33,769 nucleotides of DNA from Thermodesulfobacteriota bacterium. GTDB lineage: Bacteria > Desulfobacterota > Dissulfuribacteria > Dissulfuribacterales > QOAL01. Below the pieces are notes generated by a model. It did not search any database and was not told the DNA's origin. It worked only from the letters and a program-made list of their open reading frames with translations. Both the position numbers and the translations under genes were made by a program. This document shows positions 20,837 to 32,437 of the stretch, piece after piece; positions within the stretch are counted from its first letter, which is position 1; each line of letters begins with the position of its first letter. Where the stretch lies: assembly GCA_013154175.1 (NCBI GenBank), contig JAADCZ010000014.1:1-33769 (forward strand), read 5' to 3'.

Positions 20837-21523
20837 TTAGTCTGCTGCAAAACGGTAGCCCACCCCTGCATGGGTAAGGATATAGGTGGGGTTTGCAGGG
20901 TCTGGCTCTATCTTCTTTCTTAGCCTTCTTACATGGACGTCAAGGGCCCGTGACCAGGGATACACCTCCTTCTTGTTCCAGAGGTGACTGCTCAGAAACT
21001 CCCTGCTGAGCACCTGCCCCCTATTTTCGAGAAAAAGGTTCAAGAGCTCATATTCCTTTTTGGTAAGATTCACGCTCTTGCCGTTGACCTCTATCATGCG
21101 TTTCTTTCTGAACACCTTGAGACTTCCAAGATCCAGCGGGTCCTGGTTTGCCACAGACTTTCTGCGCCTTAGACACGCTCGGATCCGTGCCTCGAGCTCG
21201 AGGTATTCGAAGGGCTTTGTCACATAGTCGTCTGCACCGAGCTCTAGCCCCCGAATCTTATCTGGAAGGGAATCCCTGGCGCTTACTATTATTATGGGCA
21301 CATCGGATCTCTTTCGTATCTCCTGACACACCACGAGGCCATCTATGTCTGGCAGCTTGAGGTCTAGGATTATTAGATCCGGTGCCAGCACATTGTAGCC
21401 TTCGAGAACCTCCGTCCCGGTAGAGGCCCCTACTGTTTCAAACCCATCGAGTTTTAGCTGATCCATCAGAACGGTTCTGATGTCGTCGTCATCCTCCACA
21501 ACTAAAATTTTGGGATTAGCCAT
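20837..21523 (-). CDS. OmpR/PhoB-family response regulator (track ORF runs to 21544)
   Basis: Receiver with canonical phospho-Asp (LIILDLKLPDIDG) and winged-helix output domain. The MANPKILVVEDD start at 21523 is more plausible than the track start at 21544. Confidence 0.93.
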   Translation of the reverse strand: MANPKILVVEDDDDIRTVLMDQLKLDGFETVGASTGTEVLEGYNVLAPDLIILDLKLPDIDGLVVCQEIRKRSDVPIIIVSARDSLPDKIRGLELGADDYVTKPFEYLELEARIRACLRRRKSVANQDPLDLGSLKVFRKKRMIEVNGKSVNLTKKEYELLNLFLENRGQVLSREFLSSHLWNKKEVYPWSRALDVHVRRLRKKIEPDPANPTYILTHAGVGYRFAAD

Positions 21524-23075
21524 TTTCCTGACCCTTTTTTTCATCCTCTAGGCAAGGAATAAGAAAAAAGAAACAACTGCCACCTTTCCCATGCTTTCTA
21601 TCCGTAACCCCAATGATGCCTCTATGGGCCTTGATTATTCCCTTGGCAATTGCAAGCCCAAGGCCCATACCTGAATCAGACTTTGAATCCGTCCTTTGAA
21701 AAAACTTGTTAAAGATGCGCTCTCTATCCTTAGGGGGGATGCCAGGGCCATTGTCTTCGATGGTCACCTTCCAGTAGTCCCCTTCCCTGAAGAGCCTGAT
21801 TTCAATTGTATCCCTTTCTGGTGAAAATTTAATGGCATTGGAGAGAAGATTGATGATGACCTGCTCGAGACGTTTCTTGTCCATGCTCGCAAGGCAGGGT
21901 TCATCTGGCATGTGATAGTCGAGGTGAATCTTCTTTCGCCAGGCAAGTGGCATGGCAAGAAGGATGGCATCCTCCAACACCTCTGCCAGATCCGCCACTT
22001 CCTTGTGAAGGGCAAGCTCCCCACTTTCGAGCCTCGAACAATCAAGAAGGTCCTGGACCATGGAGGAAAGTTTCTGAACATTTCTCTGCAAAATGTTGAG
22101 ATAGGGCTCCTGGTCCCTGGAGCACTTTCTCTCAAGAATCGTTACGGCACCTTTAATGGCCGTAATGGGAGTTTTGAGATCATGGGTGATGTTGGTGAAA
22201 AAGTCTGATTTATACTTTTCGATCTTCTTTAGCTCATCATATGCAAGCTTCAGGCGTTCGAGTGCGGTGTCCGCCTCTTCCCTTAGTGCGCTTTGCCTCT
22301 TGGCCAAGGCAGAGACCATGTTGTTGAAGTTGTCTCCGACATTTTTCCATTCAAGACTCTGATCCAGATGCACCCGAACATCCAGATTCCCCTTTCTTAC
22401 CTCCTCTGCTGCATGGCTAAGCTCCTTCAGGGGATTTAGCACGTAGCTTCGAAGCATGAACCATAACAGGGTAAGGATAAGCAATATGCCGCTTATCATG
22501 TATATCGCATAATGAACGATATCCCTTTCCAGGGCAGTGAAGAAGTTGTTTGCATCCACCCCAATGGATATACAGCCTAGGACCTTGACCACCGGCTTTC
22601 TGGCATGGCAGCTCTGACACTCGTTTTCGAACACCAGGGGCCCCGCATATCTGAATCGATAGCTGCCTCCCTGATACTCGAGCTTCCAAACTTCGCGCTT
22701 TTTGCCAGAGACCATTTCATGAATGGCCTGCGCCTCGAATCTGTCTGGCATATGGGCGGGATTCTTTGTCTTCAAGACAGCTATCTTCAGGGAGAAGGGG
22801 CCCTTCATTCCCGATATGGCAGCGAGCTCCCCTGTAAAGGCCGAAGGGGTCTTCCTGACGAATTTGTCCCCTTCCTTCACGTAGATACCGTGCCACTTTG
22901 AAATGAGTTGCCTGGAAAACACAACAAAATGGTATATGCCCCTTGCCTGTTGAAGCAGTTGGGATAGTCCGGCCTGCTTGTACTGCTTACCCTGCCAGAC
23001 AAGAAAGATCGAGCCGAAGAGGCCAAAGATTACTATGAACCAGAAAAGGATTTTCTGGCCGAGCTTGGGAAACAT
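21516..23075 (-). CDS. Membrane sensor histidine kinase with periplasmic Tll0287/DUF3365-like domain bearing a CxxCH haem motif
   Basis: 519 aa. N-terminal TM, periplasmic segment with FENECQSCHARKP, second TM, HAMP, H-box FFTNITHDLKTPITAI, N/G boxes INLLSNAIKF and DNGPGIPP. Confidence 0.92.
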   Translation of the reverse strand: MFPKLGQKILFWFIVIFGLFGSIFLVWQGKQYKQAGLSQLLQQARGIYHFVVFSRQLISKWHGIYVKEGDKFVRKTPSAFTGELAAISGMKGPFSLKIAVLKTKNPAHMPDRFEAQAIHEMVSGKKREVWKLEYQGGSYRFRYAGPLVFENECQSCHARKPVVKVLGCISIGVDANNFFTALERDIVHYAIYMISGILLILTLLWFMLRSYVLNPLKELSHAAEEVRKGNLDVRVHLDQSLEWKNVGDNFNNMVSALAKRQSALREEADTALERLKLAYDELKKIEKYKSDFFTNITHDLKTPITAIKGAVTILERKCSRDQEPYLNILQRNVQKLSSMVQDLLDCSRLESGELALHKEVADLAEVLEDAILLAMPLAWRKKIHLDYHMPDEPCLASMDKKRLEQVIINLLSNAIKFSPERDTIEIRLFREGDYWKVTIEDNGPGIPPKDRERIFNKFFQRTDSKSDSGMGLGLAIAKGIIKAHRGIIGVTDRKHGKGGSCFFFLIPCLEDEKKGQENG

Positions 23076-23080
23076 TCGTG

Positions 23081-23422
23081 TTAAAAAAGTGGTGGACTAT
23101 GGACAATGAACAGCTTCAGCTTGCTATCCTTTCCATTTCTGACGCCGTGTTCCTCTTTGGCCGGCACAAGACAATAATCACCCGGGCCTAGGGGCTGCCA
23201 CGAGCCTGAGACGAAGATCTCCCCCTGCCCTTCAAGGCAATAAATTGAGTCGACGCTTTCATCATGGGTATGAACGGGAATTTCTATACCTGGCTCCAAG
23301 AGTAAAATGGACACCCCGAGGGATGCACCCTGGTCCTTTCCTGCAAGTTTTGCTATACTAACACCATTGAACTTTGGATGAGGCTCAAACTCAACCGCAT
23401 TGTTTCGTACGAAGATCGCCAT
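23081..23422 (-). CDS. Small cupin-domain protein
   Basis: 113 aa with cupin motifs PGIEIPVHTHDESVDSIYCLEGQGEI and LGPGDYCLVPAKEEHGVRN. Ends 5 nt before the kinase start. Confidence 0.88.
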   Translation of the reverse strand: MAIFVRNNAVEFEPHPKFNGVSIAKLAGKDQGASLGVSILLLEPGIEIPVHTHDESVDSIYCLEGQGEIFVSGSWQPLGPGDYCLVPAKEEHGVRNGKDSKLKLFIVHSPPLF

Positions 23423-23456: not shown

Positions 23457-23548
23457 GTAACAACCAACAAATTCAAGTAGAGTTAACAGGCCCTAACCAG
23501 CAATTTGATTTGTAACATCTTAGTAACATATTTAACCACACAGTAACA
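23457..23548. promoter_or_regulatory. TAAC-core repeat array, candidate multi-site regulator binding region
   Basis: NTAAC[A/C] cores start at 23457 (GTAACA), 23483 (TTAACA), 23493 (CTAACC), 23512 (GTAACA), 23523 (GTAACA), 23532 (TTAACC) and 23543 (GTAACA). Local spacings include 10, 11, 9 and 11 nt. Confidence 0.6.
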
Positions 23549-23568
23549 GAAAAATTCGCTAAAATTAA

Positions 23569-23617: not shown

Positions 23618-24178
23618 ATGAGGATTATCAAAGATAATGGGGGGGCGGTAGTCGTTGCATGTATTATTGCCTTCCTTGTGGCCCTTGTTGTGGCATTTTT
23701 CGCTGCAAAACAGGTCCAATCTACCAGCACAGTGGAGTTTTGCAATTCATGCCACGAAATGCACCCGTTTTACAAGACCTGGGCTGCAGGTAAACACGGT
23801 ACAGATGCCAAGGGAGTGATAAGGGCCAGGTGCGTTGACTGCCACCTACCCCATGACAGTCTTGCCAATTACCTAAAGACCAAGGCCTTGGCAGGCCTCC
23901 ACGACATCAAGGCCCACTGGATGGGCAAGAAGACAGATTGGCTCAAACTCTGGGAAGAGAGGGGGCCATACGTGCATTCCGCCTACAACTCAGGATGTAT
24001 GGAATGTCACAAGGAACTGGTGGCTCCTGGCATTCCCCTAAAGGCCTACACCGCACACAAGGCATTTCTCGTTGGGCAGACCAAGAAGACATGCCTGGAC
24101 TGCCACCATGAGGTGGGCCATGGAGACATCGTCAGCGAGTTCAGGGAGCTAGCCAAGAGGTCCCAACGCAAGGAATGA
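23618..24178 (+). CDS. napC: NapC/NrfH-family membrane-anchored tetraheme cytochrome c, candidate quinol dehydrogenase
   Basis: One TM anchor plus four CxxCH motifs: CNSCHEM (CxxCHxM as in NrfH haem 1), CVDCH, CMECH, CLDCH. The track ORF starts at 23570, but AGGAGG at 23606-23611 fits the ATG at 23618. Confidence 0.9.
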   Translation: MRIIKDNGGAVVVACIIAFLVALVVAFFAAKQVQSTSTVEFCNSCHEMHPFYKTWAAGKHGTDAKGVIRARCVDCHLPHDSLANYLKTKALAGLHDIKAHWMGKKTDWLKLWEERGPYVHSAYNSGCMECHKELVAPGIPLKAYTAHKAFLVGQTKKTCLDCHHEVGHGDIVSEFRELAKRSQRKE

Positions 24179-24224
24179 TTTGCTTAGGTTTTATAAAAAT
24201 TCAAAATAAATAAGGAGGGTTAAC

Positions 24225-25589
24225 ATGAAAGAGTTATTAACCAAAATGGGCACATTGTTATTGGCCGTCATCTTTTTGGGGCTGATAACAGGTGCGGCAC
24301 TTGCCGAAGAGTACTCTGGCAACGCCACGCCCAAGCTCTTCAAGGAGCTAGTTATAAAACGTGGCATGTCTCCAGAGGCCGCAAAGTGCATCGAATGTCA
24401 CTCAAAGAAGACTCCTGGAATCGTGGAGTCGTGGAAAAAGGGAAAGATGGCCCACGCCTCTGTATCCTGCTTCGACTGCCACGTGGTGGAAAAGAGCTCA
24501 CCAATGGCAAGCCAGTGTTCTGGAATCAAGGGGTCGAACATCTACATCTCCCCAATGGTTTCTTCAAAGACATGCTCCCGCTGCCATCCACAGGAGGTTG
24601 AGCAGTTTCTGAAAAGTGGCCATGCAAAGCTGGCCAGCTACCCTGTTGTGGAAAAGAAAAAGACCCTGAACCTGATTTATCACCTGGAGGGTGCCGAATT
24701 TATTGGTAACTCCAGGTCCAATTCCAGCAACTGGGCCTCGAGAGAGGCAGGATGCCAGATGTGCCACGGTGGTCAGGTAGAGCTTGGCCCAGACCACAAG
24801 CCAATCAAGAACACCTGGCCAGGTGGTGTTGGAACCAGGTACCCCGATGGTTCTGTTGGAACTTGTACAGTCTGCCACACAAGGCATCAGTTCTCTATCG
24901 AAGAGGCAAGGAAGCCCGAGGCATGTGCAAGCTGCCACCTTGGCCCTGACCATCCAGACATTGAAATCTACATGGAGAGCAAGCACGGACAGATCTTCGC
25001 CACCCAGGGCGAAACATGGGAATGGGACAGCGCTCCTGATGCATGGCAGCCAGGTGACTACACCGCTCCCACATGCGCCACTTGCCATATGAGTGGAATT
25101 GGCGATCTGACCACCACCCACAACATCAATGAAAGGCTCAAGTGGGATCTGGTTCACCCCAAGAGCGTTATCCGCTCTGGCGAAAGGGGTGACGGTGAAA
25201 AGGGTGCAAAGCTCATGAGACAGGTTTGCGCCAACTGCCACGGCCCAACCCAGATACAGAAGGAAATCAATACCCTGGACGACGCAGTCGCCCTTTACAA
25301 CTTCTACTGGGATGGTGCTGTGAAGATGAAGAAGGAGCTGGAGGCCAAGGGACTTCTGGGCAAGGATCCATGGTCTGACGGATTCCAGGAAATCATGTAC
25401 TACCTGTGGCACCATGCAGGAAGGCGTGCACGTCAGGGTGCTGCAATGAACGGACCCGACTATGCACACTGGCATGGATTCTTCCAGCTCTTCCAGATGT
25501 ATAAGGATCTGCAGCAGATCTACAACTACCGTATGAAGAACAACAAGATCGAGGATCTCAGCACTGTTATGAGCACAGGTCCCCTTTAA
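24225..25589 (+). CDS. Octaheme cytochrome c of the hydroxylamine oxidoreductase (HAO) family
   Basis: 454 aa with signal peptide and eight CxxCH motifs (CIECH, CFDCH, CSRCH, CQMCH, CTVCH, CASCH, CATCH, CANCH). C-terminal [25 protein letters not shown] resembles HAO/epsilon-HAO proteins. RBS AGGAGGG upstream. Confidence 0.87.
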
Positions 25590-25624
25590 TAGGTAAGCTC
25601 TCTAGGAGCATAAACAACTGAATA

Positions 25625-25668
25625 AAGGCTGTGGTTTGTAGGGAGCCACAGCCTTGTTACATTTTTAA
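25625..25668 (+). terminator. Terminator-like hairpin after the octaheme gene
   Basis: AAGGCTGTGG (25625-25634), 11-nt loop, CCACAGCCTT (25646-25655), followed by GTTACATTTTT. Confidence 0.65.
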
Positions 25669-25691
25669 AACAAAAAAAGGAGGGATTAGTA

Positions 25692-27131
25692 ATGAAAAGA
25701 CCGATTTTGGCACTAATTTTTGCCATGCTGTTCCTTACAGCAGGCAGTGCGCTGGCGTACAAGGTCAGTGACAACGCCTATATCAAGTTCAAGGAAGAGA
25801 TCAGGTACGAAAACTGGGCTACCTTTGAAACGCCAACCACAGTCGATGATCAGTATGACTTTGTCTCAAGCAAGATGCGTCTGGGCTTTGGATTCAACTC
25901 CAGGAACATAGATGCATACAGTGAGTTGAACTGGACCCAGTTCTTTGGTCTTCCAAGGCATGCCTCCTACGGAACCGGCGCCCTTTACTATGGCCAGAAC
26001 AATGGTGCAAGGGACGTTGGAAAGGTAGGAATCGACCAGTTGTGGCTCAGGGGACGCATGCCTGGAACCCCTAACCTCAGCGCAACCATAGGTCGTTTCA
26101 AATACAACAGCGGCCTCGAGTACAACACCAAGCCCAAAAACAAGAGGCTTCAGTGGCTGAGGAAACTTCGCATCTCCCAGAGGCTCATCGGTGGTTTCGA
26201 GTGGTCCCGTGTTGGCCGTTCCTTCGACGGTTTTCAGGTTGCCTGGAATGACAAGGACTACAACTTCACAGTGGCTGGCTTCCAGCCTACCCAGGGTGGA
26301 TTCTATCTCGATTACATGGAGAACAAGGTCAATGGATACAAAATCCATGACATCGATATCCTTACAGCTGTATTCACCTTGAAGGACACTGTCATTCCCG
26401 GGCTGGATTCACAGCTCTTCTACTACTACTACAATGACGACCGCGGTCTTCCAGACCAGGATCCTGAAATCAACAACATCGGTGGACACATCATTTACGT
26501 AACTCCAAAGATGGGCCCCGGTAGCTTTGACTTCCTGGTATGGGGTGTGTACCAGAGCGGTGTATGGGGCAATGATGACCAGAGTGCCTATGCAGTTGCC
26601 CTCGAAGGTGGTTATAAGTTCGAAGACATCAACTGGCAGCCCTGGATCAGGGGTGGTTACTTCCAGAGCTCTGGTGACGACGATCCCAACGACAATGACA
26701 GGGACACCTTCTTCCAGATGATGCCCACCTTGCGCATCTACGCCATGACCCCTTGGTTCAACCTCATGAACACCACCTACTGCTTTGGCCAGCTCATGGT
26801 CAAACCTATGCCAAACGTTCTCGTACGTACCGACGTCACAAGGCTTTGGCTCACAGAGAAAGAGGATGCCTGGTACCAGGGTTCTGGTGCAACCAGGGCA
26901 GACCTTTTCGGCTACAAGGCACTCAGGCCAGCTGATGGTTTCACGGATGACGACCTTGGAACCATGTGGGATATCTCCATCTTCATCAAGGACATCTACA
27001 AGGCTTATGGAGTAACCATGGGCCTGGATCTCTACTACAGCCACGTATGGGGCGACGACGTAGTGGAACAGATATTCACCAAGGATGAGGATCTGGATTT
27101 CTTCTACGCAGAATTCAGATTTACATTCTAA
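25692..27131 (+). CDS. Outer membrane beta-barrel porin (alginate-export-like overall character)
   Basis: 479 aa with signal peptide (MKRPILALIFAMLFLTAGSALA), alternating aromatic beta-strand pattern and terminal Phe (FFYAEFRFTF). RBS AGGAGGG upstream. Confidence 0.78.
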   Translation: MKRPILALIFAMLFLTAGSALAYKVSDNAYIKFKEEIRYENWATFETPTTVDDQYDFVSSKMRLGFGFNSRNIDAYSELNWTQFFGLPRHASYGTGALYYGQNNGARDVGKVGIDQLWLRGRMPGTPNLSATIGRFKYNSGLEYNTKPKNKRLQWLRKLRISQRLIGGFEWSRVGRSFDGFQVAWNDKDYNFTVAGFQPTQGGFYLDYMENKVNGYKIHDIDILTAVFTLKDTVIPGLDSQLFYYYYNDDRGLPDQDPEINNIGGHIIYVTPKMGPGSFDFLVWGVYQSGVWGNDDQSAYAVALEGGYKFEDINWQPWIRGGYFQSSGDDDPNDNDRDTFFQMMPTLRIYAMTPWFNLMNTTYCFGQLMVKPMPNVLVRTDVTRLWLTEKEDAWYQGSGATRADLFGYKALRPADGFTDDDLGTMWDISIFIKDIYKAYGVTMGLDLYYSHVWGDDVVEQIFTKDEDLDFFYAEFRFTF

Positions 27132-27147
27132 CAAAGTCTTTCACACA

Positions 27148-27176
27148 GGGCCGGTTTATCCGGCCCTTCTTGTTTA
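27148..27176 (+). terminator. Terminator-like hairpin after the porin gene
   Basis: AGGGCCGG-TTTAT-CCGGCCCT followed by TCTTGTTT. Confidence 0.7.
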
Positions 27177-27187
27177 GGAGGTGAACA

Positions 27188-27535
27188 GTGAAGAGACAAC
27201 TTTTAAAACTTTCCATGCTGGTAATAGCCTTCATTATGGTAACTGCCGGCGCTGCCATTGCGGCTCATCCGGAGCTTACAGAGCAGGAAAAACTGACCCC
27301 TTGCAGCCAGTGCCACAAGGAGGTCACTCCAGAGATTTACAAAGATTGGTACAACTCGGTGCATGGCCTCGATAATGTCAAATGCTTCCAGTGCCACGGC
27401 ACCTATGAAAACCTTAAGGCATCTCCAGACGAGACAAACTGTGCCGCATGCCACAACGCACAGTACATGAAGCGCCCAAAGGGCAAGAAATGCTGGGATT
27501 GCCACCCTGCCCATCACTTTTTTATCCACAAGTAA
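27188..27535 (+). CDS. napM: Small periplasmic tetraheme cytochrome c (NapM-like), GTG start
   Basis: 115 aa with signal peptide and four CxxCH motifs (CSQCH, CFQCH, CAACH, CWDCH). Directly upstream of napA, as in the napCMADGH organisation. Confidence 0.8.
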   Translation: MKRQLLKLSMLVIAFIMVTAGAAIAAHPELTEQEKLTPCSQCHKEVTPEIYKDWYNSVHGLDNVKCFQCHGTYENLKASPDETNCAACHNAQYMKRPKGKKCWDCHPAHHFFIHK

Positions 27536-27550
27536 AAGGAGGAAAATCAT

Positions 27551-29959
27551 ATGGGGCTTTCAAGAAGAGAATTCATTAAGAGAACCGCCGCCCTTACGGC
27601 TGCATCATATGTTGGAATGAACCTTCCTTTTACAAACGAGGACACTGCCCACGCATCAGATGCAGATAGCTGGCACAAGGGAACCTGCCGTCTTTGTGGC
27701 TCTGGATGCAGGCTAGAGCTTGGGGTAAAGAACGGTAAGGCAGTGGCCCTGAGGGGTATCCCCCAGTCGAGAACCAACATGGGTTACCTTTGCATGAAGG
27801 GGATGCTCTTCTACAAGCTCATGGGCACAAACCACCCAGAGAGATTCAAGAAACCCCTCTATCGGGCAAGGAAGACCGACCCCTTCAAGGAGATTTCCTG
27901 GGACGAGGCCCTTGATATTGCAGCCAGGGAGTTTGCAAATGCAATCAAGAAATATGGCAACAACTCAGTGGCATATTACGGCTCAGGCCAGTCCCTTACC
28001 GAAGAGACTTACATCTTTCAAAAGGTGATGAGGGGCGGGCTCAAGACCAACAATGTCGAAGGAAACCCCCGCCTCTGCATGGCAAGTGCAGTTGGCGGAT
28101 ATATCACATCCTTTGGTGCCGACGAGCCCATTGGAAGCTACTCGAACTTTGAAAGGGCCTCATGTTTCTTCATCATTGGAAGTAACACCGCTGAGGCACA
28201 CCCAGTGCTCTTCAGGCGCATCATGCGCAGAAAACTTGACAACAGGGACACAGTAAAGGTCATAAATGCCGATCCAAGGGTTTCACCAACCTCCAGGATT
28301 GCAGACCTTCACCTTCAGTTCGAGCCTGGAACCGACCTTGCCCTGCTAAATGCAATGGCCCACGTCATCGTAAAGGAAGGATACTACGATGAGGATTTTC
28401 TGAATAACTATGCAGTATTCAGAATGGGCAAGGACAAGAAGCAGGTTGGGTTCGAAGAATATAAAAAATTCCTTGAAGACTACACCCCTGAAAAGGTTGC
28501 CAGGCTCTGTAAGGGTAACATCACCCCAGAGAAGATAAGAAAGGCAGCCAACTGGTTTGCAAAATCCGAAGGCACCATGAGCCTTTGGACAATGGGAATC
28601 AATCAGAGGTCCCGGGGTGTGTGGGCCAATAACCTCATCCACAACCTGCACATCCTTACAGGGCAGTTGTGCAGGCCAGGGGCCGACAGCTTCTCCCTAA
28701 CTGGCCAGCCAAATGCATGCGGAGGCGTCCGTGAAGGTGGCGGACTCTGCCACATCCTTCCTGCCCACAGGCCTGTCAAGATAGACAAACTGAGACACGA
28801 GGTTGAAAGGCTCTGGGGCATTCCAGAGGGCAGGATTCCACCTAAGCCTGGCTACCATACCATTGCCATGTTCGAGGCAGTAAACCAGGGAAAGATCAAG
28901 GCCATCTGGATCAACTGCACAAGCCCTGCCCAGTCGCTTCCAAACTGCGACAAGTACAGGAAGGGAATGAAGAGGGAAGATGTCTTCATGATCGTCACAG
29001 ACATCTTTCCCACAAAGACCACAGAGCTTGCCAATCTCATACTGCCAACTGCCTTTCACTTTGAAAAGACAGGTGTCTATGGGTGCACGGAAAGGCGCTC
29101 CCAGCTCACTGTCAAGGCAGTGGATGCACCAGGTGATGCAATGCCTGAGGTGTGGATTGTTAGGGAGTGGGCACTTAGGCTCGCAAAGGAGCTGAAGGAC
29201 CCGGTAATAAAGAAGTGTGTGGAGCCATTCCTAGGAAAAGAGCCCGACTATGAGCTTCCAAAGGCAATATGGGACGAGTACACCCAGAAGCTCACAAAGG
29301 GCCGGGATAACGACCTGAGGGGAGCCACCTATGAGGTCCTTGAAAAGCTCCCGGATGGCGTTCAGTGGCCTGCACCAACAAAGGAGTGGGCACTCAAGGG
29401 CGGCACTGACATAAAGTTCGTCCGGGGCCTCGACCCACTTGCTGACAAACACGCAAAGAATGACCTACCATATCAGTTCTACGGCCCTGCCCACAAGGAC
29501 AGGAAGCTGTGGGTCTGGTTGAGGCCAATGAAGGGCCCAGAAGAGATGCCAGACAGCGAATATCCATTTTATCTGTCAACAGGCAGAATCATCGACCACT
29601 GGCACACGAGCAGCATGACTGGCCGAATAAAGGAGCTCATGCGCGCCAACCCCTACGCCTATGTGGAGGTGAACCCCAAGGATGCTGAAAAGCTCGGCAT
29701 AAAGCCAGGTGACATGGTCGAGGTGGTATCGAGGCGGGGTAAGAACATACTGCCTGCAAAGGTGTATGTGGGCCCGTGCGAAGGCATGGTATTCGTCTAC
29801 TGGCATGACCAGGATGAGGACAGGATGATAAACAGGGTCACAAAGGATGCCTTCGACCCAGGTTCAAAGGAGCCTGAGTTCAAGATATGCGCCTGTCGCA
29901 TAAGGAAGGTATCTGGACCAAAGCCCCTTAAGCCCTTCCTGGTTCACATGAAGTCGTAA
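27551..29959 (+). CDS. napA: Periplasmic nitrate reductase catalytic subunit NapA (Mo-bisMGD, 4Fe-4S, Tat signal)
   Basis: 802 aa. Tat motif SRREFIK, N-terminal CRLCGSGC...CMKG cluster, NPRLCMASAVGGYITSFGADEP (candidate Mo-Cys), INQRSRGVWANNLIHNLHILTGQLCRPG, SLTGQPNACGGVRE. napD/G/H follow. Confidence 0.92.
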   Translation: MGLSRREFIKRTAALTAASYVGMNLPFTNEDTAHASDADSWHKGTCRLCGSGCRLELGVKNGKAVALRGIPQSRTNMGYLCMKGMLFYKLMGTNHPERFKKPLYRARKTDPFKEISWDEALDIAAREFANAIKKYGNNSVAYYGSGQSLTEETYIFQKVMRGGLKTNNVEGNPRLCMASAVGGYITSFGADEPIGSYSNFERASCFFIIGSNTAEAHPVLFRRIMRRKLDNRDTVKVINADPRVSPTSRIADLHLQFEPGTDLALLNAMAHVIVKEGYYDEDFLNNYAVFRMGKDKKQVGFEEYKKFLEDYTPEKVARLCKGNITPEKIRKAANWFAKSEGTMSLWTMGINQRSRGVWANNLIHNLHILTGQLCRPGADSFSLTGQPNACGGVREGGGLCHILPAHRPVKIDKLRHEVERLWGIPEGRIPPKPGYHTIAMFEAVNQGKIKAIWINCTSPAQSLPNCDKYRKGMKREDVFMIVTDIFPTKTTELANLILPTAFHFEKTGVYGCTERRSQLTVKAVDAPGDAMPEVWIVREWALRLAKELKDPVIKKCVEPFLGKEPDYELPKAIWDEYTQKLTKGRDNDLRGATYEVLEKLPDGVQWPAPTKEWALKGGTDIKFVRGLDPLADKHAKNDLPYQFYGPAHKDRKLWVWLRPMKGPEEMPDSEYPFYLSTGRIIDHWHTSSMTGRIKELMRANPYAYVEVNPKDAEKLGIKPGDMVEVVSRRGKNILPAKVYVGPCEGMVFVYWHDQDEDRMINRVTKDAFDPGSKEPEFKICACRIRKVSGPKPLKPFLVHMKS

Positions 29960-29978
29960 AAAGGTAAAAATAAATAAA

Positions 29979-30001
29979 GGGCCGGCTGCTTGGGCCGGCC
30001 C
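29979..30001 (+). terminator. Strong GC hairpin after napA without a clear U-tract
   Basis: GGGCCGGC (29979-29986), 7-nt loop TGCTTGG, GCCGGCCC (29994-30001). Confidence 0.5.
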
Positions 30002-30037
30002 ATGACTGTTCAATTTTAAAATTTAACAAATCTGCCT

Positions 30038-30718
30038 ATGAATCTGCCCATGAAGAGAATCATCTTTTACCTATTGTTACTTCTTATTTTCGTTTCCACT
30101 TTCGTTCATGCATCACAGGAAGAGTCAATCTTTCACTACAGTCACACCAAGGGGGCCGAGTGTGCCCAAAACTGGCAGATAATGGAGGAGATCCTCGACA
30201 AAAACGGCCTTAGATGCAAGGAGGTCGTAAAAGTCAAAGGCTTTCCTTATCTTAGGGGAACTCCGGAAATATTGAGGCTTGCATCAAAGATTTCCACCAA
30301 GTACGCAGGCCACAAGTGGCTTGAACTTCTTAGAAGAATCGACCTTCAGGCCCGCTATGCAGAGCTTTCTGCCCTTCCACCAAAGGAGCTTGAAACCTTT
30401 TGCAAGGCCGCTGGCATAAACTGCATCCAGGGCCGCATAAGGGCCTATGTTGCAAGATGCTCTGCCATCATGATGGGGGATGAAAAGACTAACCACGACT
30501 TTATGAAGGTCCTGAAGGAGGCTGCCCTAGAGTCTGCATCCAAGGGGCAGAAGAAGGGTGTGCGCTGCTTTGAAAACCCGCGCACCCTAGATGGCATTGC
30601 AGGAGAAGACACCATCTCTTCCATCTTCAAACCACCAGTCAAGTCAGGGGGATTTTCAAACATCCTTCAAAACAGAATCAGGACCCAACAAAAACTTAAA
30701 AACTACAAGCCCTATTAG
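30038..30718 (+). CDS. Secreted/periplasmic protein of unknown function inside the nap cluster (alternative start 30050)
   Basis: 226 aa with N-terminal hydrophobic signal-like segment and several Cys residues but no CxxCH. No family recognised. Lies between napA and napD. Confidence 0.7.
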   Translation: MNLPMKRIIFYLLLLLIFVSTFVHASQEESIFHYSHTKGAECAQNWQIMEEILDKNGLRCKEVVKVKGFPYLRGTPEILRLASKISTKYAGHKWLELLRRIDLQARYAELSALPPKELETFCKAAGINCIQGRIRAYVARCSAIMMGDEKTNHDFMKVLKEAALESASKGQKKGVRCFENPRTLDGIAGEDTISSIFKPPVKSGGFSNILQNRIRTQQKLKNYKPY

Positions 30719-30738
30719 TTAGAGGAGGTCAGGAAGAG

Positions 30739-30978
30739 ATGCCTGTTGGAGGATTTGTCATAAATGTGGACCCCGACAAGATCCATGAAACCCTGAATTT
30801 AATCGGGGAAATAGACGGGGTTGAAATCCACGGATCAGACGAAAAGGGAAACGTGGTTGCGGTTCTCGAATCTGATACCTCCAAGGAGATGGAGGAAAAG
30901 GTTGAAGACATCATGAAAATAGACACTGTCTTAAGTGTCGGGCTTACATACTTTAATGCCGAAGATGAAGTTTCATAA
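30739..30978 (+). CDS. napD: NapD-like chaperone
   Basis: 79 aa ferredoxin-like small protein (VGGFVINVDPDKIHETLNLIGEIDGVEIHGSDEKGNVVAVLES). RBS GAGGAGGT upstream, napG follows. Confidence 0.85.
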   Translation: MPVGGFVINVDPDKIHETLNLIGEIDGVEIHGSDEKGNVVAVLESDTSKEMEEKVEDIMKIDTVLSVGLTYFNAEDEVS

Positions 30979-31624
30979 GAAGTTTCAAAAAGAAAAAAAG
31001 GCCCATTCCCAAAAAGGGGACGTGTCCATTTCGAGAAGATTCTTTCTCATGGCCTCAGCAATGGCAGGCGCCATGTTTGCACTTCCTAGGCCGGCAAGGG
31101 CCATAAAATTTTTCAAATCCCCAGTAACCACAAATGTTCTAAGGCCCCCTGGAGCGGTGCCAGAGGAAATTTTTCCGTCAAAGTGCATTAGATGCGGAAG
31201 GTGTGTCGAGGTCTGCCCCTACAAGGCCATAAGACCCCTCGATATTAGGGAGGGAATCTACGCAGGGACCCCGCTCATCTTTGTGGAAGAGATTCCGTGC
31301 TATCTTTGCATGAAGTGCGTCGAGGTCTGCCCTACTGGCACACTTAGGCCAATTCAGCAAAAGGAAACCAGGATGGGCCTTGCGGTTATTGACAAACATG
31401 CATGCATGACATGGAACGAGGAGCTTGCCCTTTGCCGCACATGCTACAACGTCTGCCCCTTCAAGGAAAAGGCAATAAAACTAAATGAGCTTCGGCCAGT
31501 GGTCATTGATGACTACTGCACAGGCTGCGGCCTTTGTGTGCACGGCTGCCCTGTTACCAGAAAGGATGGGAAGAAGGCCATAAACGTCGAGCCCATCTAT
31601 GCCTCGCGACCAGTCAAGTGGTAA
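30965..31624 (+). CDS. napG: NapG-like ferredoxin-type protein with Tat signal and four 4Fe-4S motifs
   Basis: SISRRFFLMASAMAGAMF Tat signal, then CIRCGRCVEVCP, CYLCMKCVEVCP, CRTCYNVCP, CTGCGLCVHGCP. The track start is 30935; the ATG at 30965 is the likelier start. Confidence 0.9.
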   Translation: MKFHKKFQKEKKAHSQKGDVSISRRFFLMASAMAGAMFALPRPARAIKFFKSPVTTNVLRPPGAVPEEIFPSKCIRCGRCVEVCPYKAIRPLDIREGIYAGTPLIFVEEIPCYLCMKCVEVCPTGTLRPIQQKETRMGLAVIDKHACMTWNEELALCRTCYNVCPFKEKAIKLNELRPVVIDDYCTGCGLCVHGCPVTRKDGKKAINVEPIYASRPVKW

Positions 31625-31630
31625 TGAACC

Positions 31631-32437
31631 ATGAGCAAAAAGAAACGAAACAAATACACCACCTTGCGCCTTGTTACCCTTTCTTTGGCCTTTTTGTTGA
31701 TACTTGTTACCCCTTATCTGAACCTCCACTACCAGTTTAACTTCGTCCAGGGATGGTTCCAGAGCCTCAGCATAGGAAATCTCTGGTTTGTCTCCCCCCT
31801 TGAGGGCATCGAGAGCATACTCACCTCCCGCATGATATATGCCCCCTTGCTCGTTGGAATGCTGGTGCCAGTGCTTCTTGCTGCACTTCTTGGCAGGGTA
31901 TTTTGCAGCTGGATATGCCCCATAAGCTTTTTTTCAGAATTGATCGATAGGTTTCTCTCCCTATTTTCAAAAAGGAAACTTAGGCCCCAGGGTATCAGGC
32001 TTTCAAAGAGGCTCATCTGGTTCGCCCTAATGGGAGAGCTTCTTCTGGCCCTGGTAATCGGCGCCCCTATCTTTGTTTTTCTCTCCCCTCCAGGCCTCGT
32101 TGGCAGGGAGATCATGATGGCAACCCTTTTTAAGACCCTTGCCATAGAGGGTGTGGTGGTGTTGGTGGTGCTTTTTCTGCACATTGTGTCAAACAGGATG
32201 TTTTGCCGCTACTTTTGCCCCCTTGGAGGCCTTCTTGCCCTAATAGGCATCAAGAGGAGGCTCGTCATAGAAAGAAGTGATGAAGAGTGCATAAACTGCG
32301 GTATTTGCAAGAGGGCCTGCCCCCTTGGTCTTGACCCAGAAGAGGACGAGGCCAAGTCTGCCTACTGCTGGAACTGCGGCAAGTGTGTTGAAAACTGCAA
32401 GGTTTCAGCACTAAAATTTCGCTGGAAGGACATCTAG
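31631..32437 (+). CDS. napH: NapH-like membrane ferredoxin-type quinol dehydrogenase component
   Basis: 268 aa, multiple TM segments, CSWICPISFFSELID and CRYFCPLGG motifs, C-terminal CINCGICKRACP and CWNCGKCVENC. Confidence 0.92.
   Translation: MSKKKRNKYTTLRLVTLSLAFLLILVTPYLNLHYQFNFVQGWFQSLSIGNLWFVSPLEGIESILTSRMIYAPLLVGMLVPVLLAALLGRVFCSWICPISFFSELIDRFLSLFSKRKLRPQGIRLSKRLIWFALMGELLLALVIGAPIFVFLSPPGLVGREIMMATLFKTLAIEGVVVLVVLFLHIVSNRMFCRYFCPLGGLLALIGIKRRLVIERSDEECINCGICKRACPLGLDPEEDEAKSAYCWNCGKCVENCKVSALKFRWKDI

Follow-up and report, generated by a model that had tools for sequence, protein, structure and literature searches.

Nitrate ammonification in organisms lacking the nitrite reductase gene nrfA, with HAO-type octahemes encoded beside the periplasmic nitrate reductase (nap) genes, has already been published (PMC5276818, PMC6896113); a first-pass annotation of the DNA analyzed here likewise stated that a use of HAO by ammonifiers lacking NrfA had been proposed before. 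For example, Thermosulfurimonas dismutans and Dissulfuribacter thermophilus carry an 11-gene napMADGH cluster with neither nrfA nor NapC, yet they grow on nitrate and form ammonium from it in culture (PMC5276818). Deferribacter autotrophicus, which also converts nitrate to ammonium, has a nine-gene nap-hao cluster combining napMADGH with an octaheme Hao; nrfA was reported absent (PMC6896113), and a later paper described NrfA-like cytochromes in Deferribacter (PMC11896075). The pairing of NapC with Hao is likewise published for Nautilia (PMC3701875). HAO-family octahemes as a whole are known from 65 phyla, most often from Desulfobacterota; for clades I and II the function is reported to be mostly unknown, and a role in sulfur chemistry has been suggested for one group (PMC9213671). 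Here, we analyzed a 33,769-nucleotide stretch of DNA from a Thermodesulfobacteriota bacterium (the window; contig JAADCZ010000014.1 of GenBank assembly GCA_013154175.1, C155 in a 2.33-Mb draft genome), in which a napC-type gene and a gene for an HAO-superfamily octaheme cytochrome (OCC) precede napMADGH. The comparisons made suggest that NapC-OCC probably replaces NrfHA as the nitrite-reducing module of a Nap-linked nitrate ammonification cassette.

On the plus strand, the order is napC/nrfH-type tetraheme, OCC, porin, napM, napA, an unknown gene, napD, napG, and napH, and profile and open reading frame evidence recovered every gene named in the first-pass annotation. As in Desulfovibrio-type napCMADGH loci, napM, napA, napD, napG, and napH follow one another, here with one extra unknown gene inserted, and napM adjoins napA in nearly all nap loci inspected. 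However, napC is not next to napM, because OCC and the porin intervene. Like the T. dismutans type, the cluster has napMADGH, no nrfA, and an HAO-superfamily octaheme a few genes 5' of napM. Four T. dismutans look-alikes (L134, L135, L144, and L145) carry the same type of kinase and regulator, and two of them (L134 and L135) the same 5' motif. In contrast, the octaheme of these look-alikes has 541 to 558 amino acids, is 28 to 30% identical to OCC, and is encoded with NrfD, an iron-sulfur (FeS) protein, and another tetraheme but no NapC, whereas the 454-amino-acid OCC has a NapC/NrfH-type partner and its cluster, unlike L134 and L135, has no NrfD or FeS proteins. The D. autotrophicus cluster differs from that of the window in containing hcp and a decaheme cytochrome and no NapC. 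The reverse-HURM/epsilon-Hao system of Nautilia and Campylobacter (PMC3701875) also combines a NapC/CycB-type donor, a tyrosine-less Hao, and Nap with no nrfA; in Nautilia, though, hao (NAMH_1280) is apart from cycB and nap (0553 to 0559) by locus tag, and the gene order, porin, and regulator differ.

One link to nitrite is positional. In two genomes of the same order (G028 and G024), nrfH-nrfA lies immediately 5' of napM-napA-napD-napG-napH, which is the slot held by OCC in the window. Both systems join an NrfH-type quinol dehydrogenase to a catalytic multiheme cytochrome, the upstream motif is the same in both genomes, and the regulator is the same in G028. In contrast to the pentaheme NrfA, OCC has eight CxxCH motifs and no CxxCK, and no PF02335 match was reported for it. 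Genome-level absences rest on six-frame searches, in which none of the 19 genomes in the window's family yielded nrfA; G000, the window's own, gave a sole weak match (25 bits), which lay inside a 13-heme protein. The NrfA-independent ammonification proposed for the locus is thus supported both by the absence of nrfA from the family and by the position that nrfHA takes at this nap locus in the other two genomes. No octaheme tetrathionate reductase (OTR) exceeded the cutoff in G000, nor did any Cu-NIR or cd1-NIR, the cd1-NIR negative being weak because no control genome matched. Among other genomes of the order, five (L171 to L175 in G042, G032, G024, G028, and G033, respectively) carry TIGR04315 OTR genes with one in-frame TGA, which in L171 falls at residue 62 (NNFUVS) and is probably selenocysteine.

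A sample of 395 genomes of the phylum was then scored for OCC homologues (E ≤ 1e-60) and strong NapA matches (E ≤ 1e-140). Both were present in 22 genomes and lay no more than 7 kb apart in 19, of which 7 belonged to the window's family and the rest to six other families. Among the 44 genomes with Nap, 22 had OCC, 15 had NrfA, and only 1 had both (Fisher p = 6e-5). Of the eight Nap genomes that had neither OCC nor NrfA, four carried a T. dismutans-type octaheme.

The arrangement itself is conserved. The full order is found again in most members of the window's family, with OCC 76 to 92% identical, and it is therefore not a product of chance. Within the genus, the order kinase/regulator/cupin, napC-OCC-porin-napMA-unknown-napDGH is intact wherever contigs are long enough. 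Sister genera keep the napC-to-napH order with minor losses, such as that of the porin in G010, and one sister-genus genome (G013) retains napC-OCC alone. Porin homologues are found at the corresponding position of T. dismutans-type clusters.

The first-pass annotation had suggested that a single NapC might feed both reductases, which was not borne out. From 84,980 species genomes, 395 OCC relatives were collected, and the best 80 of these (64 to 92% identity) were kept; most came from Desulfobacterota, and some were titled Acidobacteria, Nitrospirota, Verrucomicrobia, or Kiritimatiellia. A napC-type gene lay directly 5' of OCC in 75 of the 80 loci, and in the remaining 5 OCC started no more than 101 bp from a contig end. 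Most of the 80 loci had no nap genes nearby. Conversely, napMADGH occurs without napC in G022, G030, G413, and G343. The sharing of NapC was therefore rejected, and napC-OCC is read as a single reductase linked to quinol, comparable with NrfHA or with reverse-HURM. The napC product is accordingly best read as the quinol dehydrogenase of OCC itself, with NapGH and NapM serving NapA. Its profile scores were better for NrfH (TIGR03153, 5.2e-23) than for NapC/NirT (3.9e-12), both under the cutoff.

As for OCC, its eight CxxCH motifs, its PF13447 domain, and its PDB matches place it in the HAO superfamily. The best of these matches was the Ignicoccus hospitalis protein IhOCC (4qo5; profile E = 1.2e-51), followed by HAO-family proteins of Kuenenia and Nitrosomonas, and 6h5l, 4fas, and 6hif were all matched. 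In an unrooted octaheme tree, in which PDB sequences were partial and from which one 8-heme protein of G015 that was not HAO-like had been dropped, OCC was monophyletic (100/100). A split at 99.9/100 separated the HAO/HOX/HDH/KsNiR clade from OCC, the T. dismutans-type octahemes, and IhOCC, with IhOCC branching between OCC and that clade. Thus, the earlier assignment to the HAO family holds at the level of the superfamily and fails for the HAO/HOX/HDH clade. IhOCC likewise stands outside the HAO/HDH clade; it differs from OCC in having Asp-Val in place of the Asp-His pair, in its separate branch, and in its archaeal setting. In sequence alignment, Asp242-His243 of OCC corresponds to the distal Asp-His pair of HAO, and His415 is aligned, by this evidence only, with Tyr467 of NeHAO, the C-terminal tyrosine that forms the cross-link to catalytic heme 4. 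In the wider OCC group, this position is mostly His or Trp. Loss of the cross-link tyrosine with retention of the Asp-His pair is as expected for a reductive enzyme. Two other assignments were discarded: a true hydroxylamine dehydrogenase, given the missing tyrosine and the position outside the HAO/HOX/HDH clade, and ONR/OTR, given the lack of CxxCK and of TIGR04315 among the NCBIfam matches. Elsewhere in the window's genome, the octahemes of contigs C5 and C57 group on the HAO/HDH side of the tree, with similar proteins across the order; the former has a tyrosine at the cross-link position (PDYAYWYG) and the latter does not. In G149, an octaheme grouping with IhOCC (100/100) is encoded at L149:1471, with a napC-OCC pair roughly 5 kb away.

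The regulation of the locus provides a further line of evidence. The first-pass annotation had placed the likely novelty in the gene order and its regulation, and for the latter this was borne out by elements that it had not listed, namely the divergent kinase, response regulator, and cupin genes (20837 to 23422, minus strand) and the direct repeats 5' of napC. According to a preprint, Tll0287 domains are Cache domains with covalently bound c-heme, which show NO-sensor properties when fused to signaling modules, as measured on one such protein (PMC12889525). The window kinase resembles these sCache_heme kinases in having a CxxCH-bearing Tll0287 domain (PF11845) fused to HAMP-HisKA-HATPase, and by analogy it is probably an NO sensor. 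As far as we found, the preprint links no target operon to them, whereas the present analysis proposes both an operon and an operator. The CxxCH is present in all full-length kinase orthologues, whether these stand beside OCC (with or without nap), T. dismutans-type, or nrfHA (G028) modules, and response-regulator orthologues beside the three modules are 53 to 60% identical.

Direct repeats at a spacing of 10 to 11 bp are the pattern expected for an OmpR/PhoB-type regulator, and the repeats are the most conserved stretch of the napC 5' intergenic region. A weight matrix (PWM) built solely from ten sites of the window's family scored 18.0 and 11.8 before nrfH in G028 and G024, respectively, and 14.7 and 22.1 before the T. 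dismutans-type clusters of G022 and G030; the maximum for shuffled 16-kb blocks was -2.5. In other families, scores were 5 to 19 before napC-OCC and 3 to 9 before separate napM or porin operons. A genome-wide search with a 25-mer (≤2 mismatches) listed at least 31 matches in 47 genomes, against 1 for the reversed control. Most matches precede an OCC, T. dismutans-type, or nrfHA module, and the window's own genome has one; the motif is thus close to unique genome-wide, at roughly one site in each genome. Some carriers lack the motif (G388, G413, G343, and the more distant OCC group), and the regulon is thus confined to part of the group. The repeat pattern averaged 0.17 in shuffles of the window. 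Proximity and co-conservation suggest that the divergent regulator likely binds the motif. A second match of the loose repeat pattern at 25645 was rejected as an operator, being part of a terminator-like hairpin. The operator-like motif was also seen in G019 and G029 (L206 and L207) near a c554-like tetraheme gene beside a HAMP sensor with one CxxCH; these two genomes have no OCC orthologue.

The locus is best explained as a periplasmic nitrate ammonification cassette built of two respiratory modules, which probably works as follows. NapGH would oxidize quinol and, via NapM, supply NapA, which would reduce nitrate to nitrite. The NapC/NrfH-type tetraheme would also oxidize quinol and feed OCC, which would reduce nitrite; ammonium is the most likely product, or in part hydroxylamine, which Hcp would then process. 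The Alginate_exp porin probably admits nitrate or nitrite. NO arising during nitrite reduction is probably sensed by the c-heme Cache kinase, and the OmpR-type regulator, acting on the repeats 5' of napC, would switch the operon on. On a broader scale, we slightly favor the view that the order has one NO-responsive regulon with three interchangeable nitrite-to-ammonium modules (NrfHA, the T. dismutans-type octaheme with NrfD/FeS proteins, and NapC-OCC) and that the widespread Desulfobacterota OCC clade is a quinol-linked nitrite reductase replacing NrfHA.

Several points weigh against the replacement of NrfHA by NapC-OCC. When counted by family (1 with both, 7 with OCC only, 5 with NrfA only, and 4 with neither), the exclusion was not significant (p = 0.13). 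Many Desulfobacterota, including many sulfate reducers, carry OCC without nap, and its substrate is not necessarily Nap-derived nitrite; for one Desulfobacterota clade I HAO protein, Speth et al. suggested that the substrate is a sulfur compound (PMC9213671). The window's genome, a draft that is 92% complete, holds two more HAO-superfamily octahemes (L153:7813-9201 on C5 and L152:36-1277 on C57). The heme-free AlphaFold model of OCC reached a pLDDT of only 43. In addition, the strong predicted hairpins flanking the porin gene call a single OCC-porin-napM transcript into question.

Among the alternatives, the one that survives best, though it is rather unlikely, is that NapC-OCC stops at hydroxylamine and cytoplasmic Hcp completes the reduction to ammonium, a route put forward for Nautilia profundicola. 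The OCC module shares two features with epsilon-Hao/reverse-HURM, a NapC/NrfH/CycB-type quinol partner and the missing cross-link tyrosine, and NapC/CycB with a tyrosine-less Hao is exactly the module proposed there (PMC3701875). G000 does encode a full-length, Hcp-sized prismane protein (551-amino-acid frame, C145). However, hcp lies outside the locus, and 45 of the order's 46 genomes encode prismane-family proteins regardless of which nitrite module they have, nrfA carriers included, so that the presence of these proteins discriminates nothing. We consider it unlikely that NapC-OCC-porin is a unit for nitrite/NO detoxification or outward electron transfer rather than a respiratory nitrite reductase. 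The predicted NO sensing of the kinase would fit such a role, the porin and multiheme cytochromes resemble porin-cytochrome conduits, and OCC genomes without nap could meet external nitrite or NO only. Yet OCC keeps the HAO-type catalytic residues, the quinol-linked NapC partner argues for respiration, and the porin belongs to the Alginate_exp family, with no homologue in most OCC loci outside the window's family.

Reduction of a sulfur compound (sulfite, tetrathionate, or polysulfide) by an OCC that merely shares the neighborhood is more doubtful still. It agrees with the hypothesis of Speth et al. (PMC9213671), with the many OCC carriers that are sulfur or sulfate organisms, and with the lack of nap at most napC-OCC loci, but it is made less likely by the nitrite-linked comparisons: the linkage to napMADGH recurs in differing arrangements (L080, L082, L090, L104, L114, and the window's family), OCC swaps position with nrfHA, and the kinase and motif are common to both. 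Finally, a D. desulfuricans-type napCMADGH in which NapC serves NapA and OCC and the porin are inserted passengers matches the gene content, and another contig of the genome does show a genuine napC-napM-napA order (C131, L151), but this reading is very improbable given that napC travels with OCC, mostly without nap, and that napMADGH is found without napC (the four genomes named above; PMC5276818).

The features of the locus are listed in Table 1. ATG 23618 is the most likely napC start, as first annotated, since this codon and the Shine-Dalgarno sequence AGGAGGG are both conserved within the genus. The protein encoded between napA and napD had no Pfam or NCBIfam match; its orthologues are 34 to 63% identical with invariant cysteines, and its AlphaFold model (pLDDT 87) had no counterpart among PDB folds at E ≤ 0.001. 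The hairpins on either side of the porin gene are possibly attenuators or processing sites. Contig C131 (3.07 kb) holds a second, truncated set in the D. desulfuricans order, with napC at 16, napM at 606, and napA running from 1061 up to the end of the contig. The NapA encoded there is 58 to 66% identical to that of the window, and a second nitrate reductase and a stray contig are both possible.

Table 1. Features of the napC-OCC-nap locus and its divergent regulatory genes (positions in the window)
Feature	Position	Strand	Remarks
OmpR/PhoB-type response regulator	20837..21544	-	PF00072 and PF00486; divergent from cluster
Sensor histidine kinase	21516..23075	-	PF11845 (Tll0287, c-heme Cache, periplasmic), HAMP, HisKA, HATPase_c; CQSCH at amino acid 153
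Small cupin protein	23081..23422	-	PF07883; between kinase and napC in the genus and some sister genera
Candidate response-regulator operator	23510..23551	+	GTAACA three times and TTAACC, 10- to 11-bp phasing, 67 bp 5' of napC ATG
NapC/NrfH-type tetraheme quinol dehydrogenase	23618..24178	+	PF03264; longest open reading frame (ORF) from 23570
OCC, HAO-superfamily octaheme cytochrome c, 454 amino acids	24225..25589	+	8 CxxCH; PF13447, 7.7e-33; Sec-type signal peptide
13-bp hairpin with T-rich tail, OCC/porin gap	25625..25655	+	Terminator- or attenuator-like
Outer-membrane porin, Alginate_exp family	25692..27131	+	PF13372, 1.6e-21
8-bp GC-rich hairpin with T-rich tail, porin/napM gap	27147..27167	+	
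NapM-like tetraheme cytochrome	27188..27535	+	4 CxxCH; PF02085
NapA periplasmic nitrate reductase	27551..29959	+	NF010055, 8.7e-198, under family cutoff; PF00384; Tat signal SRREFIK
Secreted alpha-helical protein, family unassigned	30038..30718	+	226 amino acids; present in clusters of the window's family
NapD chaperone	30739..30978	+	PF03927, 1.5e-18; 79-amino-acid ORF
NapG ferredoxin	30935..31624	+	NF007012, 5.5e-38; Tat signal; overlaps napD
NapH membrane quinol dehydrogenase	31631..32437	+	TIGR02163, 5.9e-36

As far as we found in the literature, three things are new: the NapC-OCC version of the module at a nap locus, the exchange of this module and nrfHA at one position, and a heme-Cache kinase and operator common to three module types. 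The nrfHA swap in one locus, with one kinase and one motif, provides direct comparative evidence for nitrite, and the nitrite question is testable in cultured OCC carriers, such as Desulfuromusa kysingii, Desulfoluna, and Halodesulfovibrio. If the proposal is true, the kinase would gain a known operon as its target, something that, as far as we found, is still lacking for the NO-sensor family, and nrfA-based surveys would undercount the nitrate that anoxic sediments and vents retain as ammonium.

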